64,000 nucleotides of DNA. Source: Cloacibacterium normanense (GTDB lineage: Bacteria > Bacteroidota > Bacteroidia > Flavobacteriales > Weeksellaceae). Below are positions 2,954 to 11,108 of the stretch, one piece after another. The position numbers and the translations under genes are program-made. The first letter of the stretch is position 1; each line of letters begins with the position of its first letter. Location: the NCBI RefSeq assembly GCF_003860565.1, contig NZ_CP034157.1:2480001-2544000 (forward strand), written 5' to 3'. A model generated the notes under the pieces. That model was not told where the DNA came from and made no database searches. It saw nothing but the letters and a program-made list of their open reading frames with translations.

Positions 2954-3265
2954 TTATATTTTCAAATTTCTATTTCTTTCCATCAATTCACGAATTTTCT
3001 TTTCTTCCCAGTTTTTTCCGAGGATAAAATTAGGCAAGAAAACGGATAAACCATGCGCAAAAAGTCCAATTCCCCAAAGTCCAATTCCCCAGAATTGATT
3101 TTGCTGGAAAAACGTTTCAAAAGAATCGTATTTTATGGATGTTGACAAAATTAAAAACAAGTTGACCAAAACATAAACCAAAGCGTGAATATAGAAACCT
3201 TTGATTTCTTTCACCCTTTTTCTGGCTCTTTCGTATTGAATATTTTTATCGTTTATAGGTTCCAT
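2954..3265 (-). CDS. 2TM-domain membrane protein
   Basis: A 103-residue protein made of one 2TM module: a basic N-terminal helix (YERARKRVKEIKGFY), a hydrophobic helix near residues 28-45, a short loop, a second helix near 60-80 (WGIGLFAHGLSVF) and a C-terminal WEEKKIRELM segment. Three further copies of this module lie in the operon. The 2TM family (PF13239) is often found with histidine kinases in Bacteroidota. A role in membrane sensing or kinase assembly is inferred from context. The gene starts 4 nt after the preceding 2TM gene. Confidence 0.85.
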   Translation of the reverse strand: MEPINDKNIQYERARKRVKEIKGFYIHALVYVLVNLFLILSTSIKYDSFETFFQQNQFWGIGLWGIGLFAHGLSVFLPNFILGKNWEEKKIRELMERNRNLKI

Positions 3266-3269
3266 TTTT

Positions 3270-3578
3270 TTAATTTTTTTGTTTGTATTTCTCCATTAAT
3301 TCTTTGGTTTTTCTTTCTTCCCAATTTCTGAAATAAGGTGTGAATAAATAAATTCCGTAACCCAAAAGAAAAATTCCCCATAAGATAACTATCCAAACGC
3401 TGTAATTTCTAGAAATATTGAAAATATTACCGTCATAATTTCGGCTAACAATGAAATAACCCACTGCTAAATATCCCAAAACCATGTAATAATACGTTCT
3501 GATGTCTTTTACTCTTTTTTGTGCTTTTTTGTAAGCAATTTCGTTGAATTTATCTTGGTTTTCCATAATTATTTCCAT
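3270..3578 (-). CDS. 2TM-domain membrane protein
   Basis: A 102-residue 2TM protein with the same layout as its neighbours: a basic helix (AYKKAQKRVKDIRTYYY), two hydrophobic helices and a C-terminal WEERKTKELMEKY segment. The listed ATG overlaps the kinase stop. The ATG at 3566, 2 nt beyond that stop, gives MENQDKF and is an equally good start. This copy is the most divergent of the four modules, because the HG in the second helix is replaced by YG. Translation is probably coupled to the kinase gene. Confidence 0.82.
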   Translation of the reverse strand: MEIIMENQDKFNEIAYKKAQKRVKDIRTYYYMVLGYLAVGYFIVSRNYDGNIFNISRNYSVWIVILWGIFLLGYGIYLFTPYFRNWEERKTKELMEKYKQKN

Positions 3579-4935: not shown

Positions 4936-5229
4936 TTATTTTTCGTTTAAAATTTCTTGGATTTTTCTTTCTTCCCAGTTTCTGCCTAAAAACAGCTCAC
5001 CACCAAAAACCGATAAACCATGAGCCAATAAGCCGAAACCCCAGAAAAAAGCCGTGTAATAATTATCCATGTCATTAAAACCTTTTCCGTCTGCAATTGC
5101 ATTAGAGAAAATAATAAATACGTTTACCAGTACGAAAACCAAAGCGTGCGTGTAAAAACCTTTGATTCTTTTTACGTGCTTTCTAGCGTTTTCTAGTTTC
5201 TGTTCTTGTGTAGTTTTGTACGTTTCCAT
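4936..5229 (-). CDS. 2TM-domain membrane protein, first gene of the kinase operon
   Basis: A 97-residue 2TM protein: a basic helix (ENARKHVKRIKGFYTHALVF), a first membrane segment at ~28-45, a second at ~63-80 with a FGLLAHGLSVF motif, and a C-terminal WEERKIQEIL segment. It is most like the module at 2954-3265. It leads the operon, with a near-consensus promoter at 5283-5313 and the direct-repeat operator at 5323-5353 upstream. The kinase gene starts 23 nt downstream. The biochemical role is unknown; a sensory or scaffold function is inferred. Confidence 0.85.
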   Translation of the reverse strand: METYKTTQEQKLENARKHVKRIKGFYTHALVFVLVNVFIIFSNAIADGKGFNDMDNYYTAFFWGFGLLAHGLSVFGGELFLGRNWEERKIQEILNEK

Positions 5230-5282
5230 AGTGTTTGAATTTTAAAAATTAATATTTTGTGATTGGGTTAAATTTCTTGATG

Positions 5283-5313
5283 TAAAGGTAGTTTTATAAG
5301 ATGCGCTTTCAAA
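5283..5313 (-). promoter_or_regulatory. Promoter of the 2TM-kinase-LytTR operon
   Basis: On the minus strand, TTTG (5310-5313) is followed after 19 nt by TACCTTTA (5283-5290), one base off the Bacteroidetes -7 consensus TAnnTTTG. The predicted transcript begins near 5276, giving a leader of roughly 45 nt. Confidence 0.7.
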
Positions 5314-5322
5314 TTTTAGTTG

Positions 5323-5353
5323 ACTGAACCGTCATTTTTATATACTGAAATGT
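5323..5353 (-). promoter_or_regulatory. Direct-repeat operator, probable LytTR site 1
   Basis: ACTGAACCGT (5323-5332) and ACTGAAATGT (5344-5353) are direct repeats 21 bp apart. The near repeat starts 33 bp from the end of the TACCTTTA box, exactly as at the two sister sites. The minus-strand form ACGGTTCAGT resembles LytTR half-sites. The position just upstream of the -33 element fits an activator. Confidence 0.75.
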
Positions 5354-5358
5354 AATTT

Positions 5359-5391
5359 AATCCTTAAAGGATTTCAAATCCTTTAAGGATT
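5359..5391. repeat. REP-like palindrome on the left of the RAYT gene
   Basis: A perfect 16-bp inverted repeat with a 1-nt centre: arms 5359-5374 and 5376-5391, built on AATCCTTAAAGGATT and AATCCTTTAAGGATT. Each arm is itself nearly palindromic. The same units, in the other order, flank the right side of the transposase gene. Confidence 0.85.
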
Positions 5392-5426
5392 GGAAATGAA
5401 AAAATGTTATTTTTACAAAAAAACTA

Positions 5427-6038
5427 ATGGATTCTTTAGCCTTAATACCTGGAAATTTTTACCATATTTATAATAGGGGAAATAATGGACAAGATATTTT
5501 CTTTGAGAATGAAAATTATATTTTTTTTCTTAATCGATACGACAGATATATTTCGCCCTTTTGTGAAACGATAGCTTGGGTTCTTTTAAAAAATCATTTT
5601 CATATTTTAATTTATGTTAAAGATTATGAAGATTTTAATATGAATAACCTAGAATATTCAACTGTGAAAAGTCCCAAACGTATAGATTTGCATTTACAAT
5701 TTGGACACTTTTTTAATTCTTATGCAAAAGCTATTAATAAACGATATAAAAGAACAGGAAGCCTATTCGAGAAAAAATTTGAAAGAAAAATTGTAAATTC
5801 TGATACTTATTTACGAAATCTGATACATTATATCCACTATAATCCTGTAAAACATCGTTTTACGGAAAATATTTGGGATTATCCTTGGAGTTCTTATGAA
5901 AGCGTTTTATCTAGTAAACCCACAAAACTTAAAAGAGAATTTGTTCTTAATTTATTTAAAAACAAAAAAGCCTTTGAAGAAGAGCACCAAAAAGAAAAAA
6001 ATTATATAGACATTGAAGATTTAATTATTGAATATTAA
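5427..6038 (+). CDS. REP-associated tyrosine transposase (RAYT, Y1_Tnp family)
   Basis: A 203-residue single-domain HUH transposase of the IS200-like/TnpA-REP family. The HUH motif is KNHFHILIYV (~residues 56-65), and the YIHYNPVKH block (~131-139) holds the likely catalytic tyrosine. The SLFEKKF and WSSY signatures typical of RAYTs are also present, and the length is normal. The gene is flanked at once by palindromes at 5359-5391 and 6041-6073, as expected for a RAYT and its REP substrates. It appears intact. It reads against the surrounding minus-strand genes and sits between the LytTR operator and the neighbouring periplasmic-protein gene, so it probably arrived after that cluster formed. 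Confidence 0.88.
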   Translation: MDSLALIPGNFYHIYNRGNNGQDIFFENENYIFFLNRYDRYISPFCETIAWVLLKNHFHILIYVKDYEDFNMNNLEYSTVKSPKRIDLHLQFGHFFNSYAKAINKRYKRTGSLFEKKFERKIVNSDTYLRNLIHYIHYNPVKHRFTENIWDYPWSSYESVLSSKPTKLKREFVLNLFKNKKAFEEEHQKEKNYIDIEDLIIEY

Positions 6039-6040
6039 AA

Positions 6041-6073
6041 AATCCTTTAAGGATTCTTAATCCTTAAAGGATT
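6041..6073. repeat. REP-like palindrome on the right of the RAYT gene
   Basis: A perfect 15-bp inverted repeat with a CTT loop: arms AATCCTTTAAGGATT (6041-6055) and AATCCTTAAAGGATT (6059-6073). The units are those of the left palindrome in swapped order. It begins 2 nt after the transposase stop and may also act as its terminator. Confidence 0.85.
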
Positions 6074-6082
6074 GAAATAAAA

Positions 6083-6739
6083 CTATTTCGCTTGAGAAAT
6101 AAAATAATTCGCTTCACCTTGTCCCCAATTTGGATCAAGAGAAGATTTTATTTTGTAAGTTTTGAACTGTTCTAAAGCTTTCTTAAAAAGTTCAATTCCT
6201 TTGGTTTTGCTTCCACCAAATTGTTCTGGAGTGAAATATAAATCTTCGGCTTCCATAATCGTAATTCTAGGATTTTCTGGGTCTAATTTTTTAGCTTCAG
6301 CAAGAGCGTTTTGAGCAGCGAGACCTTCAGTCTGGTATCTTTCCATAGGATTTACCATCATTTTAAGCCCGTGATTCATTTTTTTCAAAATATAGATTTC
6401 TGCATTATTTGGAGAAAGTGCTTCTGCTTTGTCAATGTAATTTTGAGCCTCTTTTGCCACTTCGTCTAGTTGTGCAATTTGGTTTTGTTGCATCAGTGTT
6501 CTTCCTTTTTTTAGAATAGAAAAAGCAGCATAATAGTACGGTTGCCAAAGTGTTTTTTCTTTGTCGCCAATTCTTGCAAAATCATTGGCTTGAGCAGTGT
6601 AATCATCTGGATTAGGTTTTGGCATTTCGATGGTTTGAACTTTCGGCATCATGGCTTTTTCGTAAGCAGTTTGTGCAAAAGTGTAAGTGGTAGATAGGCT
6701 AATCGCAAGTGTAAGAATGGTTTTTTGTAAAGTTTTCAT
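6083..6739 (-). CDS. Secreted helical-repeat (TPR-like) protein
   Basis: A 218-residue protein with a clear signal peptide (MKTLQKTILTLAISLSTTYTFA, cleavage near AQT). The rest is alpha-helical and alanine-rich with TPR-like spacing, for example AEALSPNNAEIYILKKM (~residues 103-119) and AKKLDPENPRITIMEAED (~148-165). A periplasmic location is likely. I do not recognise a named family. It has its own promoter with a perfect TACCTTTG box (6775-6782) and a LytTR-type operator at 6815-6845, which tie it to the kinase operon and the TonB receptor. Function is unknown; the shared control suggests a role with the receptor. Confidence 0.75.
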   Translation of the reverse strand: MKTLQKTILTLAISLSTTYTFAQTAYEKAMMPKVQTIEMPKPNPDDYTAQANDFARIGDKEKTLWQPYYYAAFSILKKGRTLMQQNQIAQLDEVAKEAQNYIDKAEALSPNNAEIYILKKMNHGLKMMVNPMERYQTEGLAAQNALAEAKKLDPENPRITIMEAEDLYFTPEQFGGSKTKGIELFKKALEQFKTYKIKSSLDPNWGQGEANYFISQAK

Positions 6740-6774
6740 ATATAATATTTTTTAATTGTTTTAATTTTATGGTT

Positions 6775-6782
6775 CAAAGGTA
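6775..6782 (-). promoter_or_regulatory. -7 box of the TPR-like gene promoter
   Basis: The minus strand reads TACCTTTG, a perfect TAnnTTTG match. The -33 position about 20 nt upstream reads TTTC rather than TTTG, which fits a promoter that needs an activator. Confidence 0.7.
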
Positions 6783-6814
6783 TTTTGAAAGAAATTTTCT
6801 TGAAATTTTAGTTC

Positions 6815-6845
6815 ACCGAACTGTAGTTTTTCTTGACTGAATGGT
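6815..6845 (-). promoter_or_regulatory. Direct-repeat operator, probable LytTR site 2
   Basis: ACCGAACTGT (6815-6824) and ACTGAATGGT (6836-6845) are 21 bp apart. The near repeat begins 33 bp from the end of the TACCTTTG box, the same geometry as sites 1 and 3. Confidence 0.75.
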
Positions 6846-6871
6846 TTGTATGGTCAATTTTGGACTTAATT

Positions 6872-9088
6872 CTATAAGTTATTATTAATGGCTTCTTGAG
6901 TTCTGTCAGTACCAAAACTGATGAATGCACCGATGAAAACAAAAGTATTGGTAGGAGGAACGATGGCTCTAGATTTGAGACCATTGCTCGAAAAATTGTA
7001 TCCAAATTCATTTTTAGTTCCTAGAACGTTATTGATAGAAAGCACCAAGACGGTGAAAGCTCTCGCATCTTTTTTGCCTAAATTCGGTAAGTAATTAAGG
7101 CTGAAATTCACCGCTTGATAATCTTTTACAAAGCCTTGATTTTTGAGAAAAGTATTACCATTTTCGGTCACGAAATTGTAATATGGTCTTCCAGAATTAT
7201 AATTATAAGAAATATTAAATCCTGTTTTCCAATTGGTTACAAATTTTTTAGCCACCACAGAAAGCGTATGTTTTGCCGCAAAATTTGGGAATAAACTTTC
7301 GGTGTAATTCAGGTAATCTCTTTTAGAATCTAGATAAGAATAAGACACCCAATAATCTATATTTTTCAAAGATTTTTTATCTCGCCAAAATAATTCTACA
7401 CCTTTTGCATATCCACTTCCATTATTATTAAGAGTGATAGGTCTGTAAAAATCTGTGGTAGTTTTTATTAAATCTTGATATTTTTTGTAATACGTTTCCA
7501 ATCTCAAACTTCTTCCATCTGCTGCTCTTTGAACTTGAAAAATATAATGGTCAGCTCTTTGATAATGGGGTTGATAATTTTCGGTAAAAAATCTACTTTC
7601 CGGATTTTGGAAGAAAGTTCCGTAAGCTAATGAACTCGTCCATTCTTTAGAAATTCTGTAAGCCATGGCAAATCTTGGCGAAAAATTCCAGCGGTTGATC
7701 GAAGAAGAGTTTTCTGCTCTTGCTCCTATTTTTAAAGATAAATCATTGCTGATTTCCAAATCTGTTTCTGCGAAAAGTGAAGTGATATCATCTCTAAATT
7801 CATAATTTTTTTGAGCGATGGAAACCCAAGTTTCTTCTTTAGTTGTATTCAGTTCTATTCCTGCTCTTATTGCCGAAATTTTAAATAATTTTCTCTCAAT
7901 CAATGCTTTGGCGTTGAAATAATTGCCTTTAGAATCTATATCATTACTGAATTGAGACCTTCCGTTTTGGTCTACATTAGAAAAATGAAGAATATTTTGA
8001 TTATAAGTATATGAACTTCCAAGATTCAAAGTATATCTGCCAAATTTTTCTCGGTAAGAAAGCGAGTGAAACGTATTTTTCCCGTTTTGATTGATTTTAT
8101 CAGAAGAAGTTTCGTCGTCTAAATTGGGAGAAGAAAGTTTCATAGAACTGGTGTCATAACTTCCGTAATATTTGATAAAACCGCCTCTTGACGTTTTAAT
8201 TCTGAAGTTACCATTGCCACCAAAACTGTTAGGTGCTTTTTCGAAATCGGTATTGAATTTCAGAATTTTCTGCATGAGTTCTAGGTTAGAATAGCCTAAA
8301 GAAATTCCGTAAGAATGCGTTTTTTCTTGATTAATTCGCTGAATTCCGCCACTTGCAAAAATGGGAGAAATCCCAAAATCTGCAGCATTTCTCTCTGGTA
8401 AATCGATACTTTCCAAAGCTAAAACTCCAGATAAAGCTTGTCCGTAAACTGCAGAATAACCACCACTCGAAAATACATTTCCTTTGAAAAGCGAAGTATT
8501 CAATCTGTCCATCGCTTTAATTCCGGGTACAGAATTTCCGAAATAATTATTGACCAAATTTCCGTCCATGAAGAATTTGGTTTCCGTTCCGGTTCCTCCT
8601 CTCACGAAAAGACCTTCTGATTCTCCCACTTTTTGAACTCCAGGTAAGGTTTCCAATGCCGATGAAATTTGACCATTGGCTCCAGCTGTTGTGTAGACGT
8701 CAATGGGCGTCAATAGAGTAGTGGCGCGTTTTTTATCGCTGGCTTCTATGCTTCCCGCAGAAATGACTACTGCATCTATTTCGCTCACCGATTCTTTTAG
8801 TTCAGCATTTAGAATAAGGTTTTTGTCTTCAATTTGAATAGATTTTTCAATTTCTATAAATTTAGGATTAGAGAAAATCAAGGTTTGGCTTCCTTTTTCA
8901 GAAGTTTCAAACTTATAATTTCCTGTTTCGTCTGTTGTAGCGCCATCATAAGAATCTTTCAGTGTTACAGAAACACCTTTCAGCGGTTTGTTATTTCTTC
9001 CTAAAACTTTTCCAGAAATGGTAATTTGAGCAATTAAGGTAAAAGTAAAGACAAAGGTAAAGAGTAATGTAAAAATGCGAGTTTTCAT
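6872..9088 (-). CDS. TonB-dependent outer-membrane receptor
   Basis: A 738-residue receptor. A signal peptide (~1-20) is followed by a carboxypeptidase-regulatory-like beta-sandwich (~22-105), a plug domain (~120-230; GLFVRGGTGTETKFFMDG) and a 22-strand-type barrel ending in an aromatic-rich strand. It should bind a ligand at the cell surface and import it with TonB/ExbB/ExbD energy. The ligand cannot be told from sequence, and there is no SusD partner. Its promoter (9108-9115) and operator (9148-9178) place it in the putative LytTR regulon. The AraC-type gene is immediately upstream on the same strand. Confidence 0.92.
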   Translation of the reverse strand: MKTRIFTLLFTFVFTFTLIAQITISGKVLGRNNKPLKGVSVTLKDSYDGATTDETGNYKFETSEKGSQTLIFSNPKFIEIEKSIQIEDKNLILNAELKESVSEIDAVVISAGSIEASDKKRATTLLTPIDVYTTAGANGQISSALETLPGVQKVGESEGLFVRGGTGTETKFFMDGNLVNNYFGNSVPGIKAMDRLNTSLFKGNVFSSGGYSAVYGQALSGVLALESIDLPERNAADFGISPIFASGGIQRINQEKTHSYGISLGYSNLELMQKILKFNTDFEKAPNSFGGNGNFRIKTSRGGFIKYYGSYDTSSMKLSSPNLDDETSSDKINQNGKNTFHSLSYREKFGRYTLNLGSSYTYNQNILHFSNVDQNGRSQFSNDIDSKGNYFNAKALIERKLFKISAIRAGIELNTTKEETWVSIAQKNYEFRDDITSLFAETDLEISNDLSLKIGARAENSSSINRWNFSPRFAMAYRISKEWTSSLAYGTFFQNPESRFFTENYQPHYQRADHYIFQVQRAADGRSLRLETYYKKYQDLIKTTTDFYRPITLNNNGSGYAKGVELFWRDKKSLKNIDYWVSYSYLDSKRDYLNYTESLFPNFAAKHTLSVVAKKFVTNWKTGFNISYNYNSGRPYYNFVTENGNTFLKNQGFVKDYQAVNFSLNYLPNLGKKDARAFTVLVLSINNVLGTKNEFGYNFSSNGLKSRAIVPPTNTFVFIGAFISFGTDRTQEAINNNL

Positions 9089-9107
9089 AATTCTGTTTTT
9101 GATGAAG

Positions 9108-9115
9108 CAAAGGTA
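9108..9115 (-). promoter_or_regulatory. -7 box of the TonB-receptor promoter
   Basis: The minus strand reads TACCTTTG, identical to the box of the TPR-like gene and one base from that of the kinase operon. No clear -33 TTTG is visible. Confidence 0.7.
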
Positions 9116-9147
9116 TCTCTGCTCATTTCCGAAAAGAAATAAGTTTT

Positions 9148-9178
9148 ACTGAACCGTAAAAAATAGAAACTGAATCGT
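9148..9178 (-). promoter_or_regulatory. Direct-repeat operator, probable LytTR site 3
   Basis: ACTGAACCGT (9148-9157) and ACTGAATCGT (9169-9178) are 21 bp apart, with the near repeat 33 bp from the end of the TACCTTTG box. The site lies between the AraC-type gene's stop codon and the receptor start. Confidence 0.78.
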
Positions 9179-9184
9179 AGAAAA

Positions 9185-10090
9185 TTACAAAATAGGAATA
9201 CAAAAATCTACCAAACACTTTTTCTCAGGGTGTTCTTGGTAATCATTATGGTAAATTTCATAAGGACATTCTTTTCTGAACTGATGTCCGTTTTCGTTCA
9301 TCCAAAGGAAAAGAGCGTTCCAAGCAGTTTCGAATTCGGGAAGCGTAATTTCTTGTCGAGAAACGATATATTTCCCTTTTGGCAAAATTTCTAGGAAAAC
9401 TTCGCCTTCATTTTTGATGGCTTCTTCTAGCAACATTCCTGCGTGAATTCTCACTTTATTGGGAGCAGTAACTTTGAAACTATCGTGATAAACGGTAATC
9501 ATTTTCACATTTTCTCTGGGGAAAATATTTTTAGAAATAGCCCAAGAAATAAGGGTGTTATAAGCGTTTCCTATATTTTGTACACCTATGCTTAATACTG
9601 ATGCAATCTGCATTTCTGGCATTTCTTTTATTTGGATATTGGCTTTATTTTCCATAAAAAATTTCATTTGTTCTAGTTGGTAAAGATATTGCTCGAAAAC
9701 GACATCTTTTTGTCCGATATTGCTGATAATGGTTTGAATTTTCTTAAAATTTTCTGGCGAATTTTTTCTAAAAGCAGCTGGAGAAATCCCAAAGTGCTTT
9801 TTGAAGGTTTTGCCAAAAGTAGAAGGACTATTGAATCCTATTTCCAAGAAAATATCTTCTAAAGATTTTTCTTTTTTTAAGGAAAGCATCATGGCAGCTT
9901 TTTCCATGCGTTTTCTGGTGATGTAACTTAGCAAAGTTTCACTGGTAACCGCGCGAAAAATTCTATGAAAATGAAAAGGCGAAAAGGAGCCAATTTCTGC
10001 GAGTTTTTCCAAAGGAAGTTCATCGACCAGATGTTGGTCAATGTAATCTAAAACCTTTCTAATTCTTGCTAAATGTTCTTGTGAAGTCAA
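9185..10090 (-). CDS. AraC-family regulator with a GyrI-like effector domain
   Basis: About 301 residues from the chosen TTG start. Residues ~1-100 carry two helix-turn-helix motifs of AraC type (FSPFHFHRIFRAVTSE and GFNSPSTFGKTFKKHFGISPAAFR). The C-terminal ~150 residues look like a GyrI-like small-molecule binding domain. The open frame extends to another TTG at 10162, but that codon lies in the U-tract of the upstream terminator, and a consensus promoter sits at 10105-10133. I therefore place the start at 10090 (LTSQEHLARIRKVL). The effector and targets are unknown. It may regulate the neighbouring receptor or GLPGLI gene, but no shared site was seen. Confidence 0.85.
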   Translation of the reverse strand: MTSQEHLARIRKVLDYIDQHLVDELPLEKLAEIGSFSPFHFHRIFRAVTSETLLSYITRKRMEKAAMMLSLKKEKSLEDIFLEIGFNSPSTFGKTFKKHFGISPAAFRKNSPENFKKIQTIISNIGQKDVVFEQYLYQLEQMKFFMENKANIQIKEMPEMQIASVLSIGVQNIGNAYNTLISWAISKNIFPRENVKMITVYHDSFKVTAPNKVRIHAGMLLEEAIKNEGEVFLEILPKGKYIVSRQEITLPEFETAWNALFLWMNENGHQFRKECPYEIYHNDYQEHPEKKCLVDFCIPIL

Positions 10091-10104
10091 ACGATTATTT
10101 TTTA

Positions 10105-10133
10105 CAAATATAAAACTAAAAACCACAGCGCAA
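10105..10133 (-). promoter_or_regulatory. Promoter of the AraC-type gene
   Basis: On the minus strand, TTG (10131-10133) is followed after 18 nt by TATATTTG (10105-10112), a perfect TAnnTTTG box. The leader to the TTG start at 10090 would be under 10 nt. Confidence 0.65.
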
Positions 10134-10158
10134 TGGTCTATTCTTGCTCTTATAAAAT

Positions 10159-10190
10159 GCAAAAAACTCGAAGACGAATCCTCGAGTTTT
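10159..10190 (-). terminator. Terminator after the GLPGLI gene
   Basis: The arms AAAACTCGA (10163-10171) and TCGAGTTTT (10182-10190) pair, and the minus strand continues into a T-run. Confidence 0.8.
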
Positions 10191-10220
10191 CTGTTACAAA
10201 AGTTTAATATGAAGGGAATT

Positions 10221-11108
10221 TTATTTTTTCGCTTTTTCTGGAGTGTAGATTTCTACGGTATTATTACTTGCGTTATAGAAATCTTTAATTGATTTTTCTT
10301 GATCACTCATCATTTCGCCCATCGTTTTATCATTTCCTGGCATTTTCATCGCTTTCATTTCTGGAGTGATTTGTGCTCTTATCGATGCAAAAGGATCTTT
10401 TTTATATTCCTCAAAAGAAGATTCAAATTTATCTCTGTTGATAATCGTTACATCATTTCTCGCACCAAATTGTGCCGATAGTTTTTCGCTGTAAGAAAGT
10501 TCTTCAAATTCTTTTAGCGGTTTATTTGCGGTTAAAACCCAAGAGAAATTTTTCTCAGCATCTTCTATTTTTACGATTAATCCTGGTAAACCAGAGAATT
10601 TATACGGACCATCAGGGAAAGGAATAGATTCTGTAAACCAAGCCGTCCATTTTCTTCCACCAAATTCTGTGGTAGCTTTTTGAGCTTCGTATTCTCCTAT
10701 TTTTTGTTTATCGTTTGATATTTTCCAGTTGAATTTTGGTTCTTCATTATATCCAAAAACAGAATTCAGCATTCTTTCGCTAAAGTTTACCTTCATGGTA
10801 GGATATTCTTTCGTGATTTTATAAGCAAATTTTGGCATTTGGAAAGACTTTGATAAATCTTTGAAAACACCTGCTTTTTGCATTTTTTCAACTTCAATTT
10901 TTAGAACAGAATCCTGTGAAACCGTCAAGTAATCTCTATAAAGTGATTTTTTATCGGTTACGTCTAGAATCATAACCGCTTTTTGTAAAGAGTCTATTCC
11001 TTTTTTGGGTTTAAAGGTCAATTCATAAAAAAATCTGTTTGCAGATTGTGCATTTGCAAGAACTACTAAAAACAATAAAGCAAAGCTTAAAGATTTATAC
11101 CATTTCAT
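10221..11108 (-). CDS. GLPGLI family secreted protein
   Basis: A 295-residue protein with a signal peptide (MKWYKSLSFALLFLVVLANA). It contains the family-defining FSGLPGLIVKIED motif near residue 172 and the preceding WTAWFTESIPFPDGPYKF block. This family (TIGR01200) is common in Bacteroidota, often near TonB receptors, and has no established biochemical function. The protein is probably periplasmic or outer-membrane associated. The C-terminal ~80 residues are charged and Met-rich (KAMKMPGNDKTMGEMM). The gene is monocistronic, with a terminator at 10159-10190. Confidence 0.92.
   Translation of the reverse strand: MKWYKSLSFALLFLVVLANAQSANRFFYELTFKPKKGIDSLQKAVMILDVTDKKSLYRDYLTVSQDSVLKIEVEKMQKAGVFKDLSKSFQMPKFAYKITKEYPTMKVNFSERMLNSVFGYNEEPKFNWKISNDKQKIGEYEAQKATTEFGGRKWTAWFTESIPFPDGPYKFSGLPGLIVKIEDAEKNFSWVLTANKPLKEFEELSYSEKLSAQFGARNDVTIINRDKFESSFEEYKKDPFASIRAQITPEMKAMKMPGNDKTMGEMMSDQEKSIKDFYNASNNTVEIYTPEKAKK

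Follow-up and report, generated by a model that had tools for sequence, protein, structure and literature searches.

A putative autoregulated LytTR two-component regulon for a Hus-type uptake pair in Cloacibacterium normanense and its relatives

In Escherichia coli, the LytS-type histidine kinase YpdA is paired with the LytTR response regulator YpdB, and the gene yhjX encodes a transporter. YpdA senses extracellular pyruvate, and YpdB induces yhjX (PMC4847170). LytTR sites consist of two repeats of 9-11 nt separated by a spacer of 11-13 nt (PMC4847170); they are found just upstream of the -35 element and are autoregulatory (PMC6193735), and LytTR proteins activate from sites located upstream of the promoter (PMC4227749, PMC6193735). 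In the HdrRM and BrsRM systems of Streptococcus mutans, a LytTR regulator is encoded with a membrane protein and is positively autoregulated; the direct repeats, whose spacers measure 11-13 bp, adjoin the -35 element on its upstream side (PMC6193735). Such LytTR Regulatory Systems (LRS) are two-protein combinations of a LytTR regulator and a membrane inhibitor, and are set apart from phosphorelay systems (PMC6193735). In Porphyromonas gingivalis, husA and husB belong to the hus operon, and the haemophore HusA, which is surface-attached or secreted, is thought to pass its ligand to the TonB receptor HusB (PMC10100897). Haem uptake in this species is also under the control of the two-component system HaeSR, which two papers cite for the hmu, iht and gingipain genes, not for hus (PMC10913741, PMC10100897). 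Here we describe a locus in which elements of these systems occur together. It lies in a stretch of 64,000 nucleotides of Cloacibacterium normanense DNA (contig NZ_CP034157.1, positions 2,480,001 to 2,544,000), which is called the window below; all positions refer to it. Three units, all on the minus strand, encode a 2TM-kinase-LytTR system, a HusA-like protein and a TonB-dependent receptor, and each is preceded by a pair of repeats and a promoter box.

The locus resembles YpdA/YpdB in having a LytS-type kinase and a LytTR response regulator, but the genes that it is predicted to control encode a TonB receptor of the outer membrane and a homologue of a haemophore, and its kinase has a C-terminal 2TM domain and is accompanied by three further 2TM proteins. 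As in HdrRM and BrsRM, the regulator is encoded with membrane proteins and direct repeats precede the promoters; unlike there, the membrane proteins are of the 2TM family, and the system includes a histidine kinase and a receiver domain, for which reason we rejected a classification as an LRS. As in the P. gingivalis Hus system, a HusA-like protein of the tetratricopeptide repeat (TPR)-like type is encoded beside a TonB receptor and the aromatic residues of its groove are kept, whereas the LytTR-type operator at each unit and the attached 2TM-kinase/LytTR pair set the locus apart from what we found described for that system. With HaeSR the locus would share two-component control of haem uptake. 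Neither LytTR control of hus, nor a LytTR regulon of this kind, nor a function for 2TM kinases was found in the literature searched, which covered few subscription papers and, for hus, partial texts. The parts are of known kinds; the combination, the operator and its spread are new to us.

In the direction of transcription, all three units have the layout ACNNTTCRGT-N11-ACNNTTCRGT, 9 bases, TT(T/C), 20 bases and TACCTTT(A/G). The repeats of each pair (5323-5332/5344-5353, 6815-6824/6836-6845 and 9148-9157/9169-9178) are 21 bp apart from start to start. The coordinates and the repeat spacing given in the original prediction, an earlier reading of the bare sequence, were all confirmed, and the 33 bp that it counted from the end of the box are the same distance as the 32 bases that we count between the box and the nearest repeat. 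With up to two mismatches allowed, the pattern had four matches in the window, against a mean of 0.05 in shuffled sequences; three of them were perfect, and the fourth, with two mismatches, was found inside the receptor gene. In the complete 2.76-Mb genome the exact pattern was found three times, at these three operators, and the backward control was not found at all. The repeat-promoter layout is confirmed to be far beyond chance. As the pattern was derived from these three sites, the independent evidence is the comparison with relatives.

The original prediction attributed the three units to a LytTR regulator encoded in the same locus, and several observations agree with this assignment. The regulator has a receiver and a LytTR domain, both with Pfam scores above the cut-off (LytTR, 71.1 bits for a cut-off of 22.6; Response_reg, 42.1 for a cut-off of 30.2), it is the sole protein of the genome that matches the LytTR domain (PF04397, E <= 0.001), and the three operators all lie beside its gene. 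NCBIfam gave matches below the cut-off only, BtsR/LytR being the nearest. A LytS-type kinase (His_kinase PF06580, E 8.2e-25) is encoded beside the regulator, and the genes from 5229 down to 2097, in the order 2TM-kinase-2TM-2TM-LytTR, would probably form an operon. The repeats themselves, paired and of 9-11 nt with a spacer of 11-13 nt, stand upstream of the target promoters, and both their spacing and their place match those of published LytTR sites (PMC4847170, PMC6193735, PMC4227749). We infer that the LytTR protein of the window binds the three operators. The features are collected in Table 1.

Table 1. Predicted operators, promoter boxes and genes of the locus (window positions).
Feature	Position	Strand	Basis
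-7 promoter box TACCTTTA, 2TM-kinase-LytTR operon	5283..5290	-	sequence
Operator 1, ACATTTCAGT-N11-ACGGTTCAGT	5323..5353	-	sequence; conserved upstream of 2TM/kinase operons
-7 box TACCTTTG, HusA-like gene	6775..6782	-	sequence
Operator 2, ACCATTCAGT-N11-ACAGTTCGGT	6815..6845	-	sequence
-7 box TACCTTTG, receptor gene	9108..9115	-	sequence
Operator 3, ACGATTCAGT-N11-ACGGTTCAGT	9148..9178	-	sequence
LytTR response regulator, receiver and LytTR DNA-binding domain, 246 aa	2097..2837	-	Pfam Response_reg and LytTR
Stand-alone 2TM-domain membrane protein	2954..3265	-	Pfam 2TM, E 2.2e-25
Stand-alone 2TM-domain membrane protein; 10-base overlap with kinase gene	3270..3578	-	Pfam 2TM, E 9.3e-13
LytS-type histidine kinase with C-terminal 2TM domain, 447 aa	3569..4912	-	Pfam His_kinase and 2TM
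Stand-alone 2TM protein, leading gene of operon	4936..5229	-	Pfam 2TM, E 4.8e-26
HusA-like (haemophore family) helical protein, 218 aa	6083..6739	-	profile match to PG_2227/HusA; AlphaFold and Foldseek
TonB-dependent receptor, 738 aa, probably HusB-like	6872..9088	-	Pfam TonB_dep_Rec_b-barrel and CarbopepD_reg_2

For the comparison with near relatives, loci were retrieved with the LytTR protein, namely the best 80 of 461 relatives (73-99% identical), which belong to Chryseobacterium, Kaistella, Epilithonimonas, Cloacibacterium and their kin. Of the gaps from 0 to 39 that were compared in these 80 loci, a gap of 11 accounted for 48 repeat pairs scoring at least 15 of 16, whereas no other gap had more than one; the backward motif gave no such pair at a gap of 11. 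When the threshold was lowered to 14, there were 113 pairs at this gap against at most 8 at any other, and 108 of the 113 lay 30-300 bp upstream of a receptor, HusA-like or 2TM/kinase gene. A TAnnTTT(G/A) box followed the second repeat in every one of these 108 gene-linked sites (at +32 bp in 60 and at +33 in 48), and a TTG-like -33 element was observed 9 bp past the second repeat in the gene-linked sites of relatives. At least one operator was present in 79 of the 80 loci, so that the search of orthologous loci that had been proposed as a check found the repeats and their spacing kept in near relatives.

The same association was examined with a weight matrix comprising the operator and the box, for which each locus group was held out in turn and then scored (cut 14). 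The groups were assigned by hand, and the Kaistella group includes records titled Chryseobacterium; open reading frames of at least 100 aa served as other genes, and the 250 bp upstream were scored. Positive scores were obtained for 58/59 receptor genes, the miss being a 26%-identical paralogue, for 10/12 first 2TM genes, the two misses being mid-operon paralogues of 35-37% identity, for 15/15 HusA-like genes outside the Chryseobacterium group, for 2/2 hydrolase genes and for 98/155 kinase-type matches, many of which are short 2TM proteins. None of the 80 LytTR genes, the 24 AraC genes or the 967 other genes was positive, and the best score among the last was -7.7.

Over 197 genomes of the family, which is taken to be Weeksellaceae, the exact pattern had 78 matches, spread over 48 genomes, and the control pattern had 2. 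All 48 genomes with an exact site were among the 173 with a kinase match and none among the 24 without one; the genera differ between the two groups, so that this association is taken as no more than supportive. The context of the sites was listed for loci L001-L003 and L138-L199 (66 rows, exact repeats dropped), while some of the 78 exact sites are located outside any retrieved locus. A receptor, HusA-like, kinase/2TM or hydrolase gene follows the site in 65 of the 66 rows, and the remaining row is incomplete.

Further out, a second family of the order (f3), which is taken to be Flavobacteriaceae, was represented by 20 loci. Kinase and LytTR genes were present in all of them and a HusA-like gene in 16; in 12 of the 20, the receptor, HusA-like, kinase, 2TM and LytTR genes stand in one row. 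Pairs scoring at least 13 were found 20 times at a gap of 11, against 0-10 times at the other gaps from 5 to 19. After pairs scoring at least 12, the box was found at +32 only (11/11, distances of 10-49 being scanned); pairs of score 11-12 were listed only with a nearby box, and the 11/11 count is free of that filter. A relaxed form of the operator prevails in this family, and its first repeat often ends in CATC. It precedes a receptor, HusA-like, kinase or DUF2141 gene in 13/20 loci, with the box at +32 in 10 of them, so the motif search extends to this family in part, 7/20 loci being without such an operator. Some of the listed pairs fall inside the receptor gene. Taken with the matrix and the box spacing, these loci show that relatives keep the layout at the same genes.

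A match to the HusA profile was found in 78/296 genomes spread over the phylum, and 20 loci of other families were picked by hand from the best HusA matches outside the order. The receptor adjoins the HusA-like gene in all 20, and in 9/20 kinase and LytTR genes follow this pair on the same strand within 2 kb. At 340-381 aa, the kinases of these loci are shorter, and their neighbourhood showed no stand-alone 2TM gene. Among the ten loci that have a LytTR gene in the stretch, four show a clear operator before the receptor (scores 13-16), three of these four coming from one genus; among the ten without such a gene there is none (no score above 10). A score of 11 in three more loci is weak evidence, because other gaps reach 11 and above too. 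In L302, L303 and L305, which have hus-like pairs and no LytTR gene in the stretch, a different shared element of about TTTGGTTTATAAAATAAACTA was observed before the receptor gene; it is perhaps the site of another regulator.

A natural rearrangement in a genome of the same genus (G006, locus L265) bears on the role of these promoters. The sequence matching window positions 5255-9087, from the leader of the 2TM operon through to the start of the receptor, is missing there, and the operator, promoter and leader of the receptor now stand directly before the 2TM-kinase-LytTR operon (L265, about 5500-6090), whose kinase and LytTR reading frames are open. No receptor orthologue was found in the G006 genome (best match 25% identity over 155 residues), and the HusA-like gene is gone at the locus, to which this search was confined. 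One promoter of this kind has thus replaced another at the operon, suggesting that the promoters of the regulon are interchangeable. A second deletion in L265 removed the helix-turn-helix part of the neighbouring AraC gene.

The secreted protein of the second unit had been described in the original prediction as a TPR-like periplasmic partner. By profile comparison and predicted fold, it is a homologue of the P. gingivalis haemophore HusA. Its AlphaFold model has a mean predicted local distance difference test (pLDDT) score of 90.9, and the best match of this model in the PDB is HusA (6bqs; Foldseek E 4e-10, 30% identity, template modelling scores 0.75/0.80). A profile of 30 orthologues matched PG_2227/HusA with E 2.4e-36 and nothing else at E 0.01 or better, while at the Pfam cut-off the protein received no name. 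As to the periplasmic location, HusA of P. gingivalis is instead attached to the surface or secreted. The N-terminal stretch of the window protein resembles a signal peptide, as judged by eye.

The site at which HusA binds haem and other porphyrins is a hydrophobic groove, to which L123, V124, W130 and Y164 contribute together (PMC6173696). We located these four positions by counting along the profile alignment, and found them to be mostly hydrophobic or aromatic. Those of W130 and Y164 are aromatic in all 30 orthologues, that of L123 holds M in 29 and V in one, and that of V124 holds V in 26, A in two and E in two. The receptor is probably HusB-like, because the HusA-like gene adjoins it; its structural model matches many TonB receptors alike (FusA, FptA, BtuB, ZnuD) and for this reason carries no information on the ligand. 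As the partner is a homologue of a HusA-type haemophore, the likely cargo of the pair is haem or a porphyrin.

The regulon may also be real and serve another cargo, a TPR-like relative of HusA having been reused for a different ligand, which we regard as rather unlikely. The groove of HusA binds porphyrins without iron coordination, so that its ligand range could drift, the groove residues of the orthologues are similar and not identical, as the E at the V124 position shows, and the secreted-looking alpha/beta hydrolase that has the same operator in relatives is no obvious haem gene. Against this stand both aromatic positions, kept without exception, and the adjacency of the receptor and HusA-like genes in 12/20 second-family loci and in 20/20 of the hand-picked loci elsewhere, as for husA and husB (PMC10100897).

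We consider it probable that the locus is a self-contained LytTR two-component regulon with positive autoregulation, which serves a Hus-type pair for the uptake of haem or porphyrin. The kinase with its 2TM domain would sense a signal, probably as part of a complex with the stand-alone 2TM proteins, and phosphorylate the LytTR regulator. A dimer of the latter would occupy both ACNNTTCRGT repeats, which lie on the same face of the helix at a distance of two turns, and from this position, about 9 bp upstream of the -33 element, would recruit RNA polymerase to the TTG/TAnnTTTG promoters. This would switch on three targets: the operon of the regulator itself, the gene of the HusA-like protein as a secreted binder of porphyrin, and that of the HusB-like TonB receptor. 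A more speculative proposal, to which we give a rather low probability, is that the 2TM domain is the sensor, and that the stand-alone 2TM proteins and the C-terminal 2TM domain of the kinase form a membrane complex that binds haem or porphyrin and gates the kinase. A histidine towards the second 2TM helix is present in 95% of 97 kinase C-termini and in 63% of 273 stand-alone 2TM proteins, and this conservation makes haem sensing by 2TM conceivable. If it were true, the 2TM-LytTR systems of the order would be a porphyrin-sensing class, in a positive-feedback loop with their own haemophore and receptor.

Activation is the expected direction of control, because the operators are located upstream of the promoter at a fixed distance. 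It is improbable that the regulator represses at these sites and keeps the system off until a signal arrives. A LytTR protein can repress, as AgrA does at bsaA, when it is bound downstream of the promoter (PMC4227749); the operators described here precede the -33 element and keep a fixed distance from the promoter, and this is the place from which LytTR proteins activate (PMC4227749, PMC6193735).

It is important to mention the observations that weigh against an autoregulated regulon for haem/porphyrin uptake. By the strict pattern, 125 of the 173 kinase-bearing genomes of the family have no site, and outside the family this pattern is at the control level (1 against 5 in 207 genomes). In the Chryseobacterium group, the matrix found no operator of its own before the HusA-like gene in any of 43 loci; the gene is mostly located at most 100 bp behind the receptor gene there, and is assumed to be co-transcribed with it. 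The seven second-family loci mentioned above lack an operator at the expected genes, and in the same family two pairs that have a box precede unrelated genes (L249, L261). Half of the hand-picked hus-like loci of other families (10/20) have no LytTR gene in the retrieved stretch. Concerning the cargo, sequence comparison gave no receptor homologue with a solved structure, and the structural model of the receptor is of low quality (pLDDT 67.5), so that the identification with HusB rests on the HusA-like neighbour. As a ferrochelatase is encoded in the genome, the bacterium may make haem and need not import it, and uptake may be optional. Finally, iron or haem starvation lowered husA or left it almost unchanged in one study of P. 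gingivalis (PMC10913741); in another, HusA was detected only under iron limitation (PMC6173696).

The adjacent AraC-family regulator (9185-10126) was also considered as the protein that acts on the repeats. AraC-type proteins can bind direct repeats about 21 bp apart, the AraC gene is on the same strand and ends directly upstream of operator 3, and AraC matches occur in 3/4 loci of the Cloacibacterium group and in 20/50 of the Chryseobacterium group, to which such matches among the 80 loci are confined. In the retrieved stretches of 17 Kaistella-group and 9 Epilithonimonas-group loci there is no AraC match, yet operators are present in 26/26; the AraC gene of G006 no longer encodes the helix-turn-helix part, and the operator there is intact; and the AraC genes carry no operator themselves. 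The 26 loci and G006 exclude the AraC neighbour as the general binder, and we hold this explanation to be very improbable. That the sites arose by chance, or as a repeat family spread by a mobile element such as the one adjoining operator 1, has a negligible probability and is refuted by the box spacing at all gene-linked sites and by the absence of operators from the other genes. The stretch matching that element is absent from L058 and L266, and all three operators are kept in L058 and in G001, the genome to which L266 belongs.

An autoregulated LytTR regulon would offer a testable function for widespread genes, namely the 2TM kinases, the attached LytTR regulator and the HusA-like protein, for none of which our literature search found one. 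A sensor family without a known signal would be tied, in a testable manner, to haem or porphyrin uptake. As the TonB receptor-haemophore pair is tied to one operator that can be read from sequence, such regulons become predictable genome by genome. If porphyrin is bound, the regulated HusA-receptor pairs of many other families suggest an older function.

Several further observations concern the operators of relatives. Some Chryseobacterium-group loci, L073, L081, L084 and L106 among them, have a split regulator operon: one operator precedes the kinase, and another stands in front of a short 2TM gene that is located immediately upstream of LytTR. Since many loci of this group have the extra operator before the 2TM-LytTR part, the regulator genes can have two operators. 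In relatives the operator has a fourth target, an alpha/beta hydrolase gene whose product of about 264 aa looks secreted and, in the L060/L149 copy, matches Pfam Hydrolase_4; its operators were grouped by eye in 11 rows (L149, L152, L155, L158, L161, L168, L172, L177, L182, L184 and L192). In the genome of the window, a search for this hydrolase target gave weak matches only.

Upstream of the receptor gene, the window encodes an AraC-GyrI regulator and a GLPGLI-family protein (9185-11108), both without an operator. A gene resembling REP-associated tyrosine transposases (RAYT) is located at 5427-6038 on the plus strand, with an NCBIfam match to REP_Tyr_transpos below the cut-off. The RAYT unit as a whole (5356-6077) abuts operator 1, and the stretch is present in L267 and absent from L058 and L266. 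Its flanks are palindromes of the AATCCTTAAAGGATT type.

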